A DNA stretch of 64,000 bases, taken from positions 806,001 to 870,000 of the forward strand of contig NZ_CP063458.1 of the NCBI RefSeq assembly GCF_015169395.1, read 5' to 3'. The DNA is from Humisphaera borealis. Lineage in GTDB: Bacteria > Planctomycetota > Phycisphaerae > Tepidisphaerales > Tepidisphaeraceae. The notes under the pieces were generated by a model. It was not told the DNA's origin and ran no database searches. It was given only the letters and a program-made list of their open reading frames with translations. The position numbers were made by a program, and so were the translations under genes. Below are positions 17,625-62,712 of the stretch, piece after piece (position 1 is the stretch's first letter; each line of letters starts with the position of its first letter).

Positions 17625-17849
17625 GATAAACTCCTCTAAGAGCTTGATTCCGCCGGGAATGTAGCGGCCGCGCCCGCCGGCGGCAAGACGATTCGAACGT
17701 CCATCTCCCCGCGAGCGCCCTTTTCGATCCACGGCCCGGTCGATACAGTCATCGTCGTGGCGGGCAGTGGCCCGACAGCGCCGAATTTGTCAGCAGCGAT
17801 CGCCCGTCTGCGTCGCTTCGTACGCCTTCGAACACACCCAGGAGCGGGC

Positions 17850-18818
17850 ATGGCTTGGACAGCAGCGTCTCTTCGATCAGGAATTGCCACGGTCGCCTTT
17901 GCCGCCGTTTTCACCTCGGCCTCTGCCCGTGCCCAGGTTGCTGCCCCGGCGATCGAGGAATCACGTCCGATCGTTCTGCTTCGCCCGTTTGCCCTGGTCG
18001 ATCAACCCGAATCGATCTACCCCGATCCCGAGCCGCCGAAACCGAATACGGGCGTCAACGAAGGTGGCGTTCATATCAGCCTGAACGTCAGCTATCTGAC
18101 CGACTATGTGTACCGCGGTATCGATCGCAGCGAGATCGGCGCGATCGATCCATCTGAGACCGGCGACGTCACCGAGGACGCGCCGAACCTGCAATTCAAC
18201 GGCAAGCTGACCTTCGACCTCGGTCGCGCACCACACCCGTTCGTTGGCCTTTTCGCCAACGTCTACAACGACGATCCCGTCTCCCGCTTCCAGGAGGTCC
18301 GTCCCTACTTCGGCCTAGACTGGACCATCCGCCCGCTGCGTTTGACCGCCGGGTGGCAGACGTACATCTATCCGGAGCGCGACGACTTCAACACTTCAGA
18401 GATCTTCGGCAGCATCGAGATTGATGACTCGGTCTTCTTTCGGACGGACCGGCCCATCTTCGCCCCGTATATCTACGCGGCGTATGACCACGATCTCTAC
18501 GACGGCCTCTACCTGGAGGCTGGCCTGAAACACGACTTTGTCATTGAGGGCACCGGCGTCACACTCACCCTGACGGGAAATGTCGGCTTCGTCGCCGGTC
18601 ACGGGTACTTTACGGCTCAAAACGGGGAGGACACCGGATTTCAACACTACGAAGTGGGATTGATCGGGGCCTACTCGCTCAACACACTCGCCAACATCAG
18701 CAAGCGATATGGCGACTGGAAGCTGCGGGGCTACCTCTTTTACACCGATGGGCTAAACAACGATCTTCGGGCTGATACGCAGATCTGGGGCGGGGTGGGT
18801 ATCGGATTTGACTATTGA
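17850..18818 (+). CDS. Outer-membrane beta-barrel protein, TorF/porin-like
   Basis: The 322-residue protein has a signal peptide (VAFAAVFTSASARAQ), a Pro-rich linker (YPDPEPPKPNTG), then alternating amphipathic strands ending in an aromatic residue (final GGVGIGFDY), the pattern of an outer-membrane barrel. The sequence LNVSYLTDYVYRGID near the first strand is characteristic of the TorF-family putative porin group. The start at 17850 is chosen because GGAG precedes it and the signal peptide begins there. The cargo is unknown. A long stem-loop follows the gene. Confidence 0.75.
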   Translation: MAWTAASLRSGIATVAFAAVFTSASARAQVAAPAIEESRPIVLLRPFALVDQPESIYPDPEPPKPNTGVNEGGVHISLNVSYLTDYVYRGIDRSEIGAIDPSETGDVTEDAPNLQFNGKLTFDLGRAPHPFVGLFANVYNDDPVSRFQEVRPYFGLDWTIRPLRLTAGWQTYIYPERDDFNTSEIFGSIEIDDSVFFRTDRPIFAPYIYAAYDHDLYDGLYLEAGLKHDFVIEGTGVTLTLTGNVGFVAGHGYFTAQNGEDTGFQHYEVGLIGAYSLNTLANISKRYGDWKLRGYLFYTDGLNNDLRADTQIWGGVGIGFDY

Positions 18819-32803: not shown

Positions 32804-33409
32804 ATGTCGATCCGAAGCCGCCGCTCCGCCGCACTGTTGATCGCCCTGGCGATCTCGCCGTTCACGCTGATTGCCGCCGACGCGCCCAAGGCAGAATCCA
32901 AAACCGAAGCGCCCAAAGCCGCTGCCGCCAAAGCCGTTGAACTGTTCAACGGCAAGGACCTCACCGGTTGGGGCTACAAGACCGGCGAGAAGTTCGACGG
33001 CAAGACCGAGTCGGACGACAAGCGCTACTCGGCGAAGGACGGCGTATTGACCGTTAATCCGGGCACCGGCATCCGCCAGCTCTGGACGACCGCCCAGTTC
33101 ACTGGCGACTTCGAGTTGCGGCTGGAGTTCCGCGCCGGCGTCGCCGCCGACAGCGGACTGTTCGTCCGCGGCCCGCAGTTACAGGTCCGCGACTACCTCG
33201 TCGCCGGCCCGTACAAGGAACTCAAGAAGTACAAGGCGCAGGACTGGAACGAGATCATCGTGATCGTTAAAGACGGCGTCGCCCACTGCACCTGCAACGG
33301 CGAAGTGCTCAATGCGGCGATGAAGGTGCCCGCCACCGGCGGCATCGGCTTGGAGGCCGACAAAGGGACCATGGAGTATCGCAATCTCCGGCTGACGCCG
33401 GCGAAGTGA
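32804..33409 (+). CDS. Secreted DUF1080 (3-keto-disaccharide hydrolase-like) protein
   Basis: The 201-residue protein has a signal peptide (ALLIALAISPFTLIAADA) and a DUF1080 domain of concanavalin-like fold, recognised by VELFNGKDLTGWGYKT, GVLTVNPGTGIRQLWT, FELRLEFRAGVAADSGLFVRGP and the ending GGIGLEADKGTMEYRNLRLTPAK. Family members cleave 3-keto-disaccharides and other glycosides or act as carbohydrate-binding domains. The start is fixed by AGGAGG eight bases upstream. It is a typical planctomycete exported glycan-acting protein. Confidence 0.9.
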   Translation: MSIRSRRSAALLIALAISPFTLIAADAPKAESKTEAPKAAAAKAVELFNGKDLTGWGYKTGEKFDGKTESDDKRYSAKDGVLTVNPGTGIRQLWTTAQFTGDFELRLEFRAGVAADSGLFVRGPQLQVRDYLVAGPYKELKKYKAQDWNEIIVIVKDGVAHCTCNGEVLNAAMKVPATGGIGLEADKGTMEYRNLRLTPAK

Positions 33410-33428: not shown

Positions 33429-33527
33429 AACGAAGGTACGAAGGGGCACGAAGGCACGAAGTTTTTTGTACACTGCAGTCAGGCACGCATTTCTTTGTGT
33501 CCTTCGTGTCTTCGTGCCCTTCGTGTT
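33429..33527. repeat. Inverted array of CACGAAGG-type short repeats
   Basis: The left arm is a tandem of ACGAAGG-like units (33429-33461), the right arm its complement (CCTTCGTG units, 33493-33527), with about 30 bases between. The whole can fold into a long hairpin. Related arrays built on CGCCAAG and CACGGAG lie at 47229-47473. Confidence 0.75.
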
Positions 33528-33543
33528 CAAAACGAACGTCGAG

Positions 33544-33563
33544 TCTCTCTCTCTCTCTCTCTC
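33544..33563. repeat. CT dinucleotide repeat
   Basis: About ten CT units occur 70 bases before the helicase start codon. Such microsatellites can vary in length by slippage. Confidence 0.7.
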
Positions 33564-33634: not shown

Positions 33635-36067
33635 GTGATCTCTCGCGACGAAATCATCCTCGACTATCTCGAACGCCTTGCGTACGCGCCTTACCCCGTG
33701 CAGGAAGAGGCGCTGTACGCCTGGGCCGCGTCCGAGCAGGGGGTGCTGCTGTCGGCGCCGACGGGCACCGGCAAGACGCTCGTCGCTGAGGCGGCGGTAT
33801 ACGAAGGGCTGCGCACCGGAAAGAGCGTCTACTACTCCACGCCGCTGATTGCCCTCACCGACCAGAAGCTCATCGAACTTCAGGACACCGTCGAACGCTG
33901 GGGCTACGAGCGCGACACCGTCGGCCTGGTCACCGGGCACCGCACGGTGAACCCTAACGCGCCGATCAAGGTCGTCGTCGCCGAGGTGCTGCTCAACCGG
34001 CTGCTCCACCCCGAGGCGTACGACTTTGCCAATGTCGGCGCGGTGGTGATGGACGAGTTCCACAACTTTAACGAGCCGCAGCGGGGGATCGTCTGGGAAT
34101 TGGCGTTGTCGCTGCTGCCGGCGCACGTCCGCGTCATGCTGCTGTCGGCGACGGTGGGGGCGGCTTCGGAGTTCGTCAACTGGATGGCCCGCAGCCTCGA
34201 TCGGCGGGTGACGCTCGTTGAGGGCAGAGAGCGCAAGGTTCCGCTCCATTTCCACTGGGTGGGCGACGAACTGCTGCCCGATTTCGTGGAGAGTATCGCC
34301 CGCGGCGAAGACACGCGCCGGCGTACGCCATTGCTGATCTTTTGTTTCGACCGCGAGATCTGCTGGGTGACGGCCGATGTGCTCAAAGGACGCGACGTGT
34401 TCGTCGAGGGCCAGCGTAAGGCGCTGCTCGACCGGCTGGAATCGTTCGACTTTTCCGTCGGTTCCGGTAACAAGCTGCGGACGTTTCTGACGCGCGGCAT
34501 CGGCATCCACCACGCAGGTCTGCTGCCGCGCTACCGGCGGGTGGTGGAGATGCTGTTCCAGGAAAAGCTGCTGCCGGTCTGTGTCTGCACGGAAACGCTC
34601 GCGGCCGGCATCAACCTGCCGGCGCGGTCGGTCATTCTGACGACGCTGGTCAAAGGGCCGCGCGACAAGAAGAAACTGATCGACCCCAGCGCCGCGCAGC
34701 AGATGTTCGGCCGGGCCGGCAGGCCGCAGTTCGATACTGAGGGGCACGTCTTTGCGATGGCGCACGAAGACGACGTGAAGCTGTTCCGCTGGAAGGAAAA
34801 GTACGACTCCATCCCCGAAGACACCAAGGACCCGGGGCTGATGAAGGCCAAGAAGGCGCTGCTGAAGAAGAAGCCGACGCGGCGGGCCAACTTCACCTAT
34901 TGGAACGCCGACCAGTTCACCAAGCTGCAGACCGCGCCACCGGCCCGGCTGGCGAGCAAGGGGCGGCTCACCTGGCGGTGGCTGGGGTTCCTGCTGGAGG
35001 CCAACCCGGCCGTCGAGCCGATACGCCAGGTCATCCGCCGTCGGTTGATGGACTTGCCGACGATCGAAGGCGAGATCAAACGGCTGACGCGCATGCTGGT
35101 GACGCTCAGTCATATGGGCGTGGTGTTGCTCGACCCGCCGCCGCCCAAGAGCTGGCTCGACGCGATCAAGCCTGCAGGCAGTTCGGCCGGGGCGGCGGCG
35201 GTCGATCCCGCCGACGCGGCAGCACCGCCGGACGACGACGAAGACGATGCCGAACCATCGACAGCGGCTTCTCCGACATCGACCACGGATCTGCTCGGCC
35301 GGCTGAAGCTTGGTGAGCACGTCGGCGCGACCGTCGCCGCTGCGACGGCGAAAGCCGCCGGCAAAAACGCACCCGCGTTCACCGAGCCGTACGACGTCAT
35401 TACCGCCACGCCCACGCCACGCCTCAAAGACCTGATGGTCTTCCGCGCCGTGCATCCGTTGTACGGCTTGTTCCTGATGGACTACCTCGCCAAGGCCGAG
35501 GACCACGAGCTGGTGCAGATCCTGGAGAGCCTGCTGGAGATGCCCGGCTCGGTCGCCAAATCGCTGCGGGTGCCGTGGCCGGATGATTTGCCGCCCGGGC
35601 GGCTTGCGCTGGAAGTGGTGGACCCGGCGATCCTGACGCGCGGGCTGGCCGCGCACGAGGACCTCTATCCGCCGTCGGATCAATCCGACCTGCCGCCCGA
35701 GATGCGCAAGTACCCCGTGCCGCTGGCGCAGAAGGTGCGGATGCTGTTCGAGAGCGAGATCGACCACGCCGGTGGACTGTTCATCACGCCGGTTTGGGGC
35801 ATCGGCGACTTGCTGAATCACGGCGGCGACTTCGACAAGTTCGTCCGTTCGCGCGACCTGCTGAAGCAGGAGGGCATCTTCTTCAAGCATGTGCTGCGGA
35901 TGATCCTGCTCTGCGAAGAGTTCGCCCAGCTCACGCCTAAAGACGTGAACCGCGACGAATGGCAGACCCGGCTGCGGAGTATCGCTGCCGTATTGACGAC
36001 GGCATGCCGCACGGTCGATCCGCAGTCGACCGACGAAATCCTGGAGGAACTGGTGGACCAGATCTAG
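33635..36067 (+). CDS. Ski2-like superfamily 2 RNA/DNA helicase
   Basis: The 810-residue ATPase has the SF2 motifs: Walker A SAPTGTGKT (residues 40-48), motif Ia STPLIALTDQK, DEFH box at 140-143, motif III LLSATVG, motif IV-V regions (GIGIHHAGLLPRYR, CTETLAAGINLPARSVIL) and motif VI QMFGRAGRPQFD. The HHAGL and GxN-PAR blocks mark the Ski2-like group. Residues about 510-560 form a Pro/Asp-rich linker (PDDDEDDAEP). The product probably unwinds RNA or DNA. Translation starts at GTG (33635). The whole opposite strand is also open, which reflects base composition. Confidence 0.9.
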   Translation: MISRDEIILDYLERLAYAPYPVQEEALYAWAASEQGVLLSAPTGTGKTLVAEAAVYEGLRTGKSVYYSTPLIALTDQKLIELQDTVERWGYERDTVGLVTGHRTVNPNAPIKVVVAEVLLNRLLHPEAYDFANVGAVVMDEFHNFNEPQRGIVWELALSLLPAHVRVMLLSATVGAASEFVNWMARSLDRRVTLVEGRERKVPLHFHWVGDELLPDFVESIARGEDTRRRTPLLIFCFDREICWVTADVLKGRDVFVEGQRKALLDRLESFDFSVGSGNKLRTFLTRGIGIHHAGLLPRYRRVVEMLFQEKLLPVCVCTETLAAGINLPARSVILTTLVKGPRDKKKLIDPSAAQQMFGRAGRPQFDTEGHVFAMAHEDDVKLFRWKEKYDSIPEDTKDPGLMKAKKALLKKKPTRRANFTYWNADQFTKLQTAPPARLASKGRLTWRWLGFLLEANPAVEPIRQVIRRRLMDLPTIEGEIKRLTRMLVTLSHMGVVLLDPPPPKSWLDAIKPAGSSAGAAAVDPADAAAPPDDDEDDAEPSTAASPTSTTDLLGRLKLGEHVGATVAAATAKAAGKNAPAFTEPYDVITATPTPRLKDLMVFRAVHPLYGLFLMDYLAKAEDHELVQILESLLEMPGSVAKSLRVPWPDDLPPGRLALEVVDPAILTRGLAAHEDLYPPSDQSDLPPEMRKYPVPLAQKVRMLFESEIDHAGGLFITPVWGIGDLLNHGGDFDKFVRSRDLLKQEGIFFKHVLRMILLCEEFAQLTPKDVNRDEWQTRLRSIAAVLTTACRTVDPQSTDEILEELVDQI

Positions 36068-40911: not shown

Positions 40912-40949
40912 CTGACTCGGAGGTCCGGCGAAGCCGGCCTCCGAGTCAG
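40912..40949. repeat. Long hairpin at the edge of the 19-bp array
   Basis: CTGACTCGGAGG plus TCCGGC pairs with GCCGGCCTCCGAGTCAG over 17 positions, with one bulged T and loop GAA. Its right arm contains the first GAGTCAG of the 19-bp repeat array, so the array appears to grow out of this hairpin. Confidence 0.75.
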
Positions 40950-41132
40950 CCAAACGAACCCGAGTCAGCCAAACGAACCCGAGTCAGCCAAACGAACCCG
41001 AGTCAGCCAAACGAACCCGAGTCAGCCAAACGAACCCGAGTCAGCCAAACGAACCCGAGTCAGCCAAACGAACCCGAGTCAGCCAAACGAACCCGAGTCA
41101 GCCAAACGAACCCGAGTCAGCCAAACGAACCC
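40943..41132 (+). repeat. Ten exact tandem copies of a 19-bp unit
   Basis: The unit GAGTCAGCCAAACGAACCC is repeated ten times without a mismatch (190 bp). The unit length is not a multiple of three and no gene spans it, so it is non-coding. It sits about 190 bases upstream of the recN start and 740 bases from the tRNA-binding domain gene. There are no spacers, so it is not a CRISPR array. Perfect identity points to recent expansion by slippage. Confidence 0.97.
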
Positions 41133-41186
41133 GAGATCGGCTGCAAATCGGCAAAAGACCTGCGACCATCGGATGTCTCCGGTCCC

Positions 41187-45375: not shown

Positions 45376-46800
45376 TCACACCGCCCATCCGCCTGCCGTC
45401 GGCGTGACGGTGACCGGGTACGCTGATAGCGCACCGCCGTTGTACGCGTAGCCGCCGCCGTAACCCCAGAAGCCGAACCTCGGTACGAACCAGAAGACCG
45501 GTGTCTGGTCCTGCGCCGGCGCGGTCGCGGTCGAGCCTGCAACGGCCTTGGTGGCGTTGGCGATGTCCAGCGTGCCGCCGGTGACGGTTTGGCCGAGGAT
45601 CGACGACTGCTGGTTTACGCCGGCGAGCAATTGGCTCTTGAGCTGCGCCGCCGTCAGCGACGGGTTCTGCGAGAGCATCAGCGCGAGTGTGCCGGCGACG
45701 TGGGGCGTTGCCATCGAGGTGCCGCTTTCGGTTTCGTACGTGCCGTCCAGGTAGGTGCTGTAGATGTCGTCGCCGGGGGCGGCGAGATCGACGGAGGTTT
45801 CGCCGTAGTTCGACCAGGAGGTCAGCGAACTGCCGCTGTTGCTGGCGGCGACGGAGATGATGTTCGACAGGTCGTAGGTGGCGGGGTAGCTGGCGTCCCA
45901 ACTGCTGTCGTTATTCACGCCGTCGTTGCCGGCGGCATAGACCATGAGCATGCCCTTTTGCTCGGCGTAGACGAGGGCGCGGTAGAGCCCGTCGGTCGTG
46001 CCGCCCGATCCGCCGTAACTGTTGCTGGTGATCTTCACGCCGTTGTCGGCGGCGTAGCGAATGGCGGCGGCGATGTCGGCATCGCTGGCGCCGTCCTGGC
46101 CGTTGCCGAAAATCTTGAGCGCCATCAGGCTCGTCTTCCAGACCACGCCGGCGGTGCCGACGCCGTTGTTGCCGATCGCGCCGATCGTGCCGGCGGTGTG
46201 GGTGCCGTGGCCGTCGTCGTCCATGGGGTTGTTGTCGTTGTCGCCGAAATCCCAGCCGATGATGTCATCGACGTATTTGTCTCCCTTGTAGCTCTTGCCG
46301 TTGCGGCCGTCCTCCCAGCCGCCGCTGAGGTTGGCCTTCCACGGCCTGAGCAGATCGCCGGCGTCGATGTGGCCGTTGGCGTTACCGTCATGCACATAGG
46401 CGGCGTTGGCGGAATTGTTGAGGTCGTAGAAGGTGATAAGGCCGTCGGCGTCGGTATCGACGAGCTTCTTCTTGAGCGCCTTGGGGATCTCGGCCTGGTT
46501 GATCCAGACGTTGAGGTAGAGATCTTCGTGGGTGTAGTCGATGCCGGAATCGATGTGCCCGACGACCACCGCCGCGCTGCCCGTGCCGGCGTCCCACGCG
46601 GATTCGGCGTTCGAACCGGACAGACCCCATTGGTCGGCGTAGCCGGGGTCGTTGGGGACGGTGGACATCAGCGTGCGCTTCTCAAGTGTGTCGAAGCGGC
46701 AGTCACGTGAGAGCGACGGCGACAGCCGCTGTTGCCAGCGGCGGAAAGCGCGGAAGACCGGCAGGCGATCGAAGTGGTTTGAGAAGGTGGGCAGGCGCAT
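45376..46800 (-). CDS. Subtilisin-like serine protease with EF-hand insert
   Basis: The 474-residue protease has the S8 triad Asp84 (GHIDSGID), His198 (DGHGTHTAG) and Ser362 (SGTSMATPHVAG), with the oxyanion Asn at about 292 (AAGND). Between Asp and His are two EF-hand-like loops: DTDADGLITFYD (115-126) and DGNANGHIDAGD (138-149), so calcium probably stabilises it. The N-terminal FDTLEKRTLMS resembles LEPR-XLL. No ordinary signal peptide is seen, so export may use that N-terminal region. GAGG lies six bases before the ATG at 46800; earlier ATGs are less well placed. Confidence 0.9.
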   Translation of the reverse strand: MRLPTFSNHFDRLPVFRAFRRWQQRLSPSLSRDCRFDTLEKRTLMSTVPNDPGYADQWGLSGSNAESAWDAGTGSAAVVVGHIDSGIDYTHEDLYLNVWINQAEIPKALKKKLVDTDADGLITFYDLNNSANAAYVHDGNANGHIDAGDLLRPWKANLSGGWEDGRNGKSYKGDKYVDDIIGWDFGDNDNNPMDDDGHGTHTAGTIGAIGNNGVGTAGVVWKTSLMALKIFGNGQDGASDADIAAAIRYAADNGVKITSNSYGGSGGTTDGLYRALVYAEQKGMLMVYAAGNDGVNNDSSWDASYPATYDLSNIISVAASNSGSSLTSWSNYGETSVDLAAPGDDIYSTYLDGTYETESGTSMATPHVAGTLALMLSQNPSLTAAQLKSQLLAGVNQQSSILGQTVTGGTLDIANATKAVAGSTATAPAQDQTPVFWFVPRFGFWGYGGGYAYNGGALSAYPVTVTPTAGGWAV

Positions 46801-47228
46801 GGTCATCCTCTGAAAGTCGGAGCGCACCGAGGGCATTGGCGCTCGCCGGGCAGGCGGTGGCGCGACGGAGCCGCAGTCGGGGCAATCGGGTGTTTGGGTT
46901 TACGGCCGCCGGTTTGGCGAGTGCCAACACGTCGCGGCAGGAGGCAGGTTCGTCGCCGTGGGGGCTAGAACAACATCCTTGCGATTAATCGGACACCCGA
47001 GCGGGGTAAGTTCTTCCCGGGAAATTGCCGGCGCGGGGAATTTCGGCGAGTGGCGGGTAGGAGCGAACGGCGGCGTTGAGTGTTACGTACGGACGGTCTT
47101 GAATGCGGTTTCAGATTCGGTCGAGTGTCGGGCCGGCTCGCGTACTAAATGCGGACTTACCACGGAGTTCATCTTGAAGCCTCTTGCCTCTCACCGAGAT
47201 GATGAAACCTTGGTACGGTGCCAGGATT

Positions 47229-47301
47229 GAACGCCAAGCCGAGACGCCAAGAGTTGCCTTGCCTTGGATGGCGTCCTTGGCGACTCGGCGTCTTGGCGTT
47301 C
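47229..47301. repeat. Inverted array of CGCCAAG units
   Basis: GAACGCCAAGCCGAGACGCC (47229-47248) and its complement CTTGGCGACTCGGCGTCTTG (47276-47301 region) flank about 27 bases. The arrangement equals that of the CACGAAGG array at 33429, although the unit differs. Confidence 0.7.
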
Positions 47302-47316
47302 ATCACTTCTGTTTTC

Positions 47317-47473
47317 GGAGCAGGACACGGAGTTCACGGAGATGAAGACCGAGAAAGGACTTCTGCGGACTCTGGCGCGGCCACTGTGTATTGTGGGGTG
47401 GCCTCGGTCACGATCCGGCGCGGCCTCCGTGGCTTCTCCGTGTCCTCAGTGTTCTCCGTGGTGAGTCTTCATT
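47317..47473. repeat. Inverted array of CACGGAG units
   Basis: ACACGGAGTTCACGGAG (left, from about 47324) and CTCCGTG-rich sequence ending GTGAGTCTTCAT (right, 47427-47473) form a long interrupted inverted repeat. It stands directly beside the CGCCAAG array. Confidence 0.65.
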
Positions 47474-47480
47474 TTTCGGG

Positions 47481-47549
47481 TTAGCGGTCGCACCGCAGGT
47501 GCACTCTTGCGAACGCAAGAAAGGCGTGCACTTTCCGTGCGACCGCTAA
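47481..47549. repeat. TTAGCGGTCGCACC palindrome, copy 1
   Basis: The left arm TTAGCGGTCGCACCGCAGG continues TGCACTCTT and pairs with GTGCACTTTCCGTGCGACC...TAA with three mismatches. The first 28 bases are identical to the copy at 62611-62638. It lies 29 bases beyond the 3' end of the BPL_N gene. Confidence 0.85.
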
Positions 47550-47577
47550 CCGCTTCAGATTGGAGGCTTGGTCCAGC

Positions 47578-48384
47578 TCAGGGCTTTTCGGTGGGCGTCG
47601 GCGCGTTGGCCACCCACCTGACGGCGTTGCGGATGAGTCCGTCGAGGCCGGCGCTGCGTTCGGGGTGTGGGCTGATGCAGATGACCCGTCCCTTGCCGAA
47701 GTTCGCCTGGGCAGCGGCGGTGGTGCCCTTCATGACGCCGACGGGAGCGCCGTTCTTGGCAATCTCGGTTTCAAACGTCGCCAGGGGTTGGTAGGCGGGC
47801 AAGTCGGGCTTGTTATCGGGGGCCAGCAGGGGGCCCTGGGCATAGTCCACGGGAACGATCTCGTCCTTGACGCCGGCCAGTGATTTGCCGTCGGACGTCA
47901 GGCGGAGCTGGACGGTGCCGGTGCCGCGGGCCCAGTGCTTGGTGTCGACGACCTGGGCGTTGAGCAGGCCGATCGACCATTTGTAGTGCGTGGTGGCGAG
48001 GTATGCTCCGCCGCAGATGCCGACATACCCGCCGCCGTCCTGAACGAACTTTTTGATGATCTCGCGCCCTTCGGGCTGGAGGGTTTCGGCCTGCTTGGAC
48101 CCGCTGCCGCCGGGTTGGACGAGGACGTCAAAATCCTTGAGTTTGCCGGCGCGGATATCCTGGGCGGTGACGAGCGTGTAGGTGAAGTCGCCGGAGCGGG
48201 AAAGGCATTTGCCGACATTATCCTTGTCGGTTCCGCCGGTATCACGATAGACGGCGACGCGCAGCACCTTACCGGCAGGCTGGGTCGAAGGGCGCGTTGC
48301 CGGCACATCGCCCGCGAGCACAAGGTGCGGAATGAAGGTGATCAGAGAAAGTGCACAGAGCATCAGACGGTCGATCGGCTTCAT
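47578..48384 (-). CDS. BPL_N / glutamine-amidotransferase-like protein, secreted
   Basis: The 268-residue protein has a signal peptide (LMLCALSLITFIPHLVLAG). The rest is a class I glutamine-amidotransferase-like (BPL_N) domain: VLRVAVYRDTGG, FDVLVQPGGSGSKQAETLQ, FVQDGGGYVGICGGAYLATTH (with the nucleophile-type Cys in GICGGAYLA) and RVICISPHPERSAGLDGLIRNAVRWVAN. This combination is seen in planctomycete proteins of unknown activity. Residue order suggests a working Cys-His pair. The start at 48384 gives the signal peptide; upstream open frame is ignored. Confidence 0.8.
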   Translation of the reverse strand: MKPIDRLMLCALSLITFIPHLVLAGDVPATRPSTQPAGKVLRVAVYRDTGGTDKDNVGKCLSRSGDFTYTLVTAQDIRAGKLKDFDVLVQPGGSGSKQAETLQPEGREIIKKFVQDGGGYVGICGGAYLATTHYKWSIGLLNAQVVDTKHWARGTGTVQLRLTSDGKSLAGVKDEIVPVDYAQGPLLAPDNKPDLPAYQPLATFETEIAKNGAPVGVMKGTTAAAQANFGKGRVICISPHPERSAGLDGLIRNAVRWVANAPTPTEKP

Positions 48385-48511
48385 GGACGTCGACTCTATC
48401 AGCCCGACGCTCATGCGATCAAAAAGAAACGCGAAATGCGTCGCGGGCCTTGCGAGGTTCAATCCGGACACAGTGTGATTCATCGCCGCCGAGACGGGTA
48501 AGACGTCAGAT

Positions 48512-62212: not shown

Positions 62213-62614
62213 ATGGCAACGCAACCCATCCATACGCGCCGCTGGAACGATCCGCCGGCCGCGGCCGACGAGGGCACACGAATCCTCGTCACCCGCTACC
62301 GCCCCCGTGGCGTCGCCAAGGCCGATGAGACATGGGATGAATGGGATCCCGCCCTGGGCCCAAGCAAGGAACTCCACGCCGCCGCCTACGGCAAGGGGAT
62401 GCTGGCGATTCCCTGGGAAACCTATCGCACACTCTATCTGCGAGAAATGCGGCTCCAGAAGGACCGGATTGCGGCGCTGGCGAAACGCGTTGCGGCGGGG
62501 GAGACGCTGACGCTGATCTGCTCGTCCGCCTGCGACCGGGAAAGCCGGTGCCATCGATCGCTGCTGCGCGAGTTGATCGAGAAGGCACTGACCCCGCCCG
62601 ATCCGACAGATTAG
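62213..62614 (+). CDS. DUF488-family protein
   Basis: The 133-residue protein has the DUF488 pattern: RILVTRYRPRGVAKADETWDEWDPALGPSKEL, LAIPWETYRTLYLREM, and LTLICSSACDRESRCHRSLLRELIEKA, with the conserved Cys in ICSSACDRESRCHRS. The activity is unknown. It follows the NosR-like gene by 18 bases. The stop TAG is the first part of the TTAGCGG palindrome, so the repeat completes the gene. Confidence 0.9.
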   Translation: MATQPIHTRRWNDPPAAADEGTRILVTRYRPRGVAKADETWDEWDPALGPSKELHAAAYGKGMLAIPWETYRTLYLREMRLQKDRIAALAKRVAAGETLTLICSSACDRESRCHRSLLRELIEKALTPPDPTD

Positions 62615-62689
62615 CGGTCGCACCGCAGGTGCACTCTTCTCGTCGGGTGCAGGGGAAAGAAAACAGTGCACCTGCGGTGCGACCGCTAA
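62611..62689. repeat. TTAGCGGTCGCACC palindrome, copy 2
   Basis: A perfect 25-bp inverted repeat (TTAGCGGTCGCACCGCAGG then TGCACT at 62611-62635 with 62665-62689) has a 29-base loop. It matches the copy at 47481-47549 over the first 28 bases. It sits between two convergent genes and may end both transcripts. Confidence 0.9.
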
Positions 62690-62712
62690 TCAGGAACCCT
62701 TCCTCAGGAACA

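Follow-up and report, generated by a model that had tools for sequence, protein, structure and literature searches.

Three long hairpins in one stretch of the Humisphaera borealis genome are each built of a different short repeat but share a design, which raises the question of what kind of process makes them. The stretch (hereafter the window, i.e. all 64,000 nucleotides at G000:C1:806001-870000) belongs to a GC-rich genome of 7.19 Mb. An initial annotation had placed the arrays at 33429, 47229 and 47317, had described them as tandem units on the left and complementary units on the right of a short centre, and had favoured an ongoing process, such as a repeat-forming or terminator system, over the descent of one element.

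Three inverted arrays in the window

We confirmed the coordinates of all three as real inverted unit arrays (Table 1). They share the plan of tandem units followed by complementary ones, but the centre can be called short only loosely, as it measures 31 nt in the CACGAAG array, about 20 in the CGCCAAG array and 83 nt in the CACGGAG array. Two units in the left arm of the CACGAAG array are exact copies of CACGAAG and two are degenerate; this array starts about 20 nt past the stop of the gene with a 3-keto-disaccharide hydrolase domain. Compared with dinucleotide shuffles, the RNA fold energies gave z values of -5.5, -6.7 and -3.6 for the CACGAAG, CGCCAAG and CACGGAG arrays, respectively. The whole window contains 196 pairs of reverse-complementary 9-mers within 160 bp, against 56-99 in 20 order-1 Markov resamplings. 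None of the window arrays matched a curated Rfam family, the gathering score being reached in the window by two tRNAs only.

Table 1 Arrays in the window and their neighbouring genes (positions are those of the window).
Feature	Position	Strand	Units and remarks
3-keto-disaccharide hydrolase domain gene	32804..33409	+	upstream of CACGAAG array
CACGAAG array, left arm	33430..33461	+	ACGAAGG, ACGAAGGG, CACGAAGG, CACGAAG
CACGAAG array, centre	33462..33492	no strand	
CACGAAG array, right arm	33493..33525	-	four inverted units: CTTTGTG, CTTCGTG, CTTCGTG, CTTCGTG
DEAD-box helicase gene	33635..36067	+	downstream of CACGAAG array; start 109 nt past array
Subtilase gene	45376..46836	-	next on minus strand; start about 390 nt beyond 47-kb arrays
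CGCCAAG array, whole extent	47228-47302		
CGCCAAG array, left arm	47228..47251	+	outer cap TGAACGCC
CGCCAAG array, right arm	47270..47302	-	CTTGGCG units, outer cap GGCGTTCA
CACGGAG array, whole extent	47326-47460		
CACGGAG array, left arm	47326..47341	+	two units, 9-bp step
CACGGAG array, right arm	47425..47460	-	three CTCCGTG units, outer cap GTGGTGA
BPL_N/ThuA-like gene	47578..48414	-	upstream; stop faces both 47-kb arrays

The window holds other repeats as well. A perfect (TC)10 run lies at 33544-33563, 18 bp past the CACGAAG array, and at 40941-41135 a 19-bp unit, CCGAGTCAGCCAAACGAAC, forms a perfect tandem array of 10.3 copies, adjoined by an inverted copy of the first part of the unit. 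Two very stable hairpins have GATTAGCGGTCGCACCGCAGGTGCAC arms in common, one at 47479-47551, directly after the 47-kb arrays, and the other at 62609-62691; about 18 intergenic gaps in the genome sample also contain this motif.

Many units on one design

Further arrays are neither few nor without a common structure. Genome-wide, the two-unit CRCSRAG pattern (CRCSRAGNCRCSRAG) had 444 matches, against 24 for a reversed-pattern control. We sampled 1.66 Mb systematically, as the window and 80 further stretches of 20 kb each, and found 35 paired arrays; their arms run plus-then-minus in 29 groups and minus-then-plus in one, which consists of the two adjacent arrays in the window. A de novo survey of the sampled sequence gave 332 strong intergenic inverted repeats, of which 42 had tandem-repeat arms with a period of 7-10 bp; none did after arm shuffling. 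This survey added units of the same design (AGTAGGC, ATCGAAC, GTCACTG, CGCAGATTT, CACAGATGAA and CACGAATGGA), so CACGAAG, CACGGAG and CGCCAAG are simply the most frequent among many units. Units are 7-10 bp long, and the commonest formula is CRCNRAG plus one base. With so many unit sequences on one plan, 'different units, same design' is therefore a broad class.

The centres of the arrays are mostly unrelated from copy to copy, with few related pairs, such as two CGCCAAG arrays of this genome that are alike over 188 bp. Unrelated loops, like the many unrelated units on one plan, would suit a purely mutational origin, in which inverted arrays develop from chance tandem repeats through slippage and foldback template switching and no mobile element takes part.

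Judging from the listed places, the first 200 kb of the contig (G000:C1:12518-201396) seem to hold forward array matches at roughly four times the density of the remainder. Palindromes nested in palindromes, often near the centre, were also seen (L076 at 17729-18023, L084, L095 and L104; in Holophagaceae L461 and L464), for example a CACAAAG array within a CACGAAG array and a repeat flanking a Y1 gene (L036) within a CACGGAG array. Near-centred nesting (11 of 17 nested pairs, KS p 0.04) might point to insertion precisely at the centre of a palindrome, but the spacers are partly complementary, and long decayed palindromes would account for much of the pattern.

Position relative to genes

With genes called in this genome by our own codon-usage model, 32 arrays could be placed between genes: 20 in codirectional gaps, 8 in convergent gaps and 4 in divergent gaps. 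Divergent gaps are depleted, about a third being predicted from gap length (p 0.008). In codirectional gaps 16 of 17 arrays lie nearer to the upstream stop than to the next start (p 2.7e-4), at median distances of 36 nt and 106 nt, respectively. This 3' bias was not confirmed at cross-phylum loci (23 of 37, p 0.19), where gene calls were crude and many arrays fell inside spurious ORFs. No orthologous intergenic DNA around the window array could be aligned in relatives at 75-79% identity.

Exchange of arrays at orthologous sites

The same site could be followed between relatives in five Holophagaceae genomes with coding anchors 81-99% identical, in which 19 orthologous sites were read from short anchors beside the arrays. 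At 9 of the 19, the unit type differs between two or more of the genomes; as these are MAGs, misassembly of an individual array is conceivable, but at the sites quoted here the flanking genes agree on both sides. A site may hold a CACGAAG, CGCCAAG, CACCAAG or CGCAGAG array, an ordinary terminator, or neither. Three genomes differ at one site, with CACGAAG, CGCCAAG and the CGCAGAG type, respectively (L267/L389/L387), and another site has CACCAAG, CGCAGAG and CGCCAAG forms (L419/L467/L474). At L431/L455, where the coding anchor is 99% identical, CACGAAG in one genome corresponds to CGCCAAG in the other, and the edges AAATCTCACC and GGTGATCCTTTGCTTTT are kept. In other cases the array is missing (L201 vs L403 and L391; L432 vs L486) or reduced to a single unit per side (L463), or an ordinary intrinsic terminator stands in its place (L237 vs L393; L231 vs L385, L398 and L399). 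Comparison of empty with filled sites, whose edges are imprecise, revealed no target-site duplication.

Any single absence may be a loss or a lack of gain. Taken together, the comparisons show that one site can gain, lose and swap hairpins, which supports an ongoing process. They also bear on a purely mutational origin: the number of units at one site varies between relatives, as such an origin would allow, whereas a wholesale change of unit at one site between genomes 97-99% identical argues against it.

Breadth across bacteria

A scan for the complete CACGAAG array, with one genome per species, gave hits that include, among the matches listed, Planctomycetota, Verrucomicrobiota, Acidobacteriota, Chloroflexota, Nitrospirota, Gemmatimonadota and alpha-, beta- and gammaproteobacteria; Bacteroidota were added through the GxxExxY search described below. 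The same design thus occurs in at least 8 phyla, which also have unit sequences and caps in common. Distribution is patchy. A three-unit match was found in 87 of 392 planctomycete genomes, with 1 to 241 per genome, and in one Azospirillum species we counted about 13 hairpins of 74 bp, nearly identical and with related loops, whereas 36 of 40 congeners have none. This uneven copy number, within a genus and within a phylum, and the unit differences, absences and plain terminators at orthologous sites bear out the proposal that a process is still at work and that the arrays do not descend from a single element.

A plasmid BLAST with an array gave no match for an 80-base query with the low-complexity filter on. 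Three-unit CACGAAG arms were seen in 26 stretches of IMG/VR contigs (L270-L295), one 41.5-kb contig holding several. A search of open-licence papers under the unit sequences, the design or GxxExxY returned no description of the class. Repeat-armed hairpins are a very large and apparently undescribed class.

Pairing at the DNA or the RNA level

For type A, the two arms of an array resemble each other more closely than they resemble the arms of other arrays (p 2.6e-4); for type B the difference is not significant. Something therefore keeps the paired arms alike, and their likeness is consistent with a purely mutational origin. Selection on an RNA hairpin predicts an excess of G-U over A-C among mismatches of the transcribed strand. 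The array arms gave no signal of such selection, with G-U:A-C ratios of 40:41 in this genome and 23:24 in other phyla (together 63:65, with modest power), whereas ordinary 3' hairpins of this genome, taken as a control, gave 43:24 (difference from arrays p 0.05, again with modest power). Because the array mismatches lack the G-U bias of ordinary 3' hairpins, the counts are modest evidence that the process acts on DNA, for example by foldback template switching.

The same counts weigh against a reading in which the arrays are RNA terminators or mRNA 3' stabilisers selected as RNA hairpins, the likeness of units and their swaps then being due to convergence and repeated terminator replacement. 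Such selection would fit the location of the arrays 3' of genes, their strong RNA folds and the ordinary terminators at the same orthologous sites, but not the sites that hold nothing in the array's place; nor does termination require identical octamers across phyla. Holophagaceae arrays lend it some support with an A-rich left flank (0.45) and a T-rich right flank (0.54), against 0.16, but no T-tract follows the hairpin in this genome (T fraction 0.26, no run), and in Azospirillum the T's precede the hairpin and none follow as a T-tract. We regard this reading as an unlikely account of the class.

Termination may nevertheless be a use to which some arrays are put. Because of their A- and T-rich flanks and their alternation with plain terminators, we infer that the Holophagaceae arrays very probably terminate transcription. 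Given the lack of a T-tract in this genome and the T's before the hairpin in Azospirillum, terminator function is a lineage-specific use and does not define the class. The terminator system first envisaged for the window therefore survives in part: it agrees with the 3' position and with the Holophagaceae sites, but not with the missing T-tracts and the missing G-U bias.

A GxxExxY gene between array arms

At two Holophagaceae loci, which represent the same orthologous site with CGCCAAG arms in one case and CACCAAG arms in the other, and at one verrucomicrobial locus, the arms enclose a small ORF. It belongs to the GxxExxY family (TIGR04256, E 6e-39; PF13366 PD-(D/E)XK, E 5e-38). All six GxxExxY genes at loci selected by their arrays are bracketed, with the plus arm 25-68 bp before and the minus arm 19-118 bp after the gene; two of the six (L218 and L242) come from closely similar loci. 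To guard against circularity, we searched plasmid records by protein alone, without regard to arrays, and obtained 8 GxxExxY genes, 4 of which lie between inverted arms: those of Bacteroides finegoldii and Bernardetia (CACAGAG arms in both), Gemmatirosa (CGCAGAG arms) and Sphingomonas (CGCGAAG arms). In each of the four, the arm pair is the only same-unit bracketing pair in the surrounding 25-40 kb. The Sphingomonas element is situated between fabD and fabG, its ORF ends inside the right arm, and the insertion is absent from another Sphingomonas species. Gene-bearing elements are 0.4-0.6 kb in size.

The other four genes, from Treponema, Fusobacteria, Persicobacter and Prevotella, have no such arms, and a short ACACGGATTCG inverted repeat is present at the Treponema gene. 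Those of Prevotella and a fusobacterium (L492 and L495) were seen between direct repeats of other sequence. A scan of 2.06 Mb of this genome (29%) revealed no GxxExxY gene, and none was found in viral contigs or in phages.

GxxExxY is plausibly an active nuclease, because 12 sequences all share residues E28, D68, E78, K80 and Q92. By sequence it had no relatives in the PDB, and structure prediction from three close sequences gave a pLDDT of 40, too low to be of use.

The bracketing of GxxExxY by array arms is hard to reconcile with hairpins that arise by mutation only, as are the unit sequences and caps shared across phyla and the related loops of the Azospirillum copies. Together with the change of whole unit types in close relatives, these observations make a purely mutational origin improbable, even though it accounts for the diversity of units and the likeness of arms.

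Relation to known repeats and mobile elements

Cyanobacterial STRR repeats are intergenic tandem heptamers, like the units described here, but to our knowledge they do not occur as inverted pairs. Bidirectional intrinsic terminators also form hairpins 3' of genes and resemble the Holophagaceae arrays in their A- and T-rich flanks; the arrays are much longer and built of repeats, and those of this genome and of Azospirillum lack the T-tract. MITEs have inverted ends, no coding capacity and many copies. The arrays differ from them in that interiors are mostly unrelated between copies, no target duplication was seen, the ends are tandem octamers and the unit type is exchangeable. A candidate autonomous partner, of the sort a MITE would have, exists as GxxExxY elements with such ends in other lineages, but not in the scanned 29% of this genome.

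REP, BIME and REPIN sequences with their RAYT genes (PMC3733652) are likewise short dispersed palindromes, intergenic, mostly downstream of coding regions and patchy among genomes. In the arrays, tandem repeats take the place of the 20-40 bp palindrome and linkage to RAYT genes is lacking, and we saw no REP tag (GTAG or CGTC) on inspection, the array arms and outer caps reading TTTCACC, GATCACC and TTGAACG. TIRtrons and TIRYT repeats (PMC3733652) also consist of long inverted repeats round a small gene, with gene-less copies elsewhere in the genome, but the gene enclosed by the arrays is of the PD-(D/E)XK family rather than a Y1 transposase, and TIRtrons exist separately in this genome. The gene-bearing form, and only this form, also resembles the intervening sequences of 23S rRNA, which are about 0.43 kb long with complementary ends and a small ORF in the loop and are regarded as selfish (PMC4990558): both are about 0.4 kb, with hairpin ends and one ORF. 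Intervening sequences, however, lie inside rRNA genes and carry an S23/IVP ORF, whereas the arrays lie between protein genes, have ends made of repeat arrays and enclose GxxExxY.

The link to REP-associated transposases suggested in the initial annotation was rejected on linkage. No array lies within 1.5 kb of any of the 11 Y1_Tnp (RAYT-family) genes of this genome. Each of them (L031-L041) is instead flanked by an inverted repeat of its own, in a TIRtron-like arrangement, and several of these repeats belong to palindrome families with multiple copies. A Y1 gene was not found in four array-bearing genomes of other phyla, two of them isolates, or in G366, a 99%-complete planctomycete with 15 array matches. 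Y1_Tnp is commoner in planctomycete genomes with at least 10 matches (24 of 26, vs 221 of 366 others; p 6e-4), but genome size confounds this comparison, since larger genomes may hold more of both. Although RAYT-like genes are known whose long flanking inverted repeats make up repeat families (PMC3733652), the idea that arrays are non-autonomous, REP-like repeats moved by resident RAYT/TIRYT (Y1) transposases is largely refuted and has very little probability left.

Proposed mechanism and significance

Our preferred reading, to which we assign a probability of about one half, is that the arrays are the gene-less form of small, putatively selfish hairpin elements that may be gene-bearing or gene-less, are reshaped at the DNA level, and are tolerated and sometimes used as terminators. 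The hairpin would be opened or cut by the enclosed PD-(D/E)XK protein, or by a host nuclease acting on cruciforms, which could lead to insertion, loss and replacement of arrays. Foldback template switching and unit-length slippage in DNA would keep unit number and variants alike in both arms. The elements would survive mainly at the 3' ends of genes, because promoters are not disturbed there, and in some lineages, such as the Holophagaceae, elements with A/T tracts may have taken over as intrinsic terminators.

Several observations weigh against such selfish elements: the scanned part of this genome has no GxxExxY gene, half of the array-blind GxxExxY genes are without such arms, two of the six array-selected loci are closely similar, and the arrays, unlike a classical MITE, have mostly unrelated centres and no visible target-site duplication. 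The data show that the arrays exist, where they lie, how widely they occur, that they are exchanged at single sites and that they are associated with GxxExxY; mobilisation by GxxExxY, template switching and termination are inferred. Only tentatively do we extend the preferred reading to a multi-phylum class of mobile elements with inverted octamer-array ends and GxxExxY as the mobiliser, whose gene-less copies would home to terminator sites and replace one another with a change of repeat type, so that 3' ends turn over faster than genes; on balance this extension is doubtful.

If the selfish hairpin elements are real, a widespread and unnamed repeat class would be explained, and GxxExxY, a common but uncharacterised family, would gain a genetic context and a testable role. 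The exchange of hairpin types at one site shows that gene 3' ends are remodelled between genomes whose coding sequences differ by only a few percent. The arrays would also provide a natural system for hairpin and cruciform processing and for terminator evolution in bacteria.
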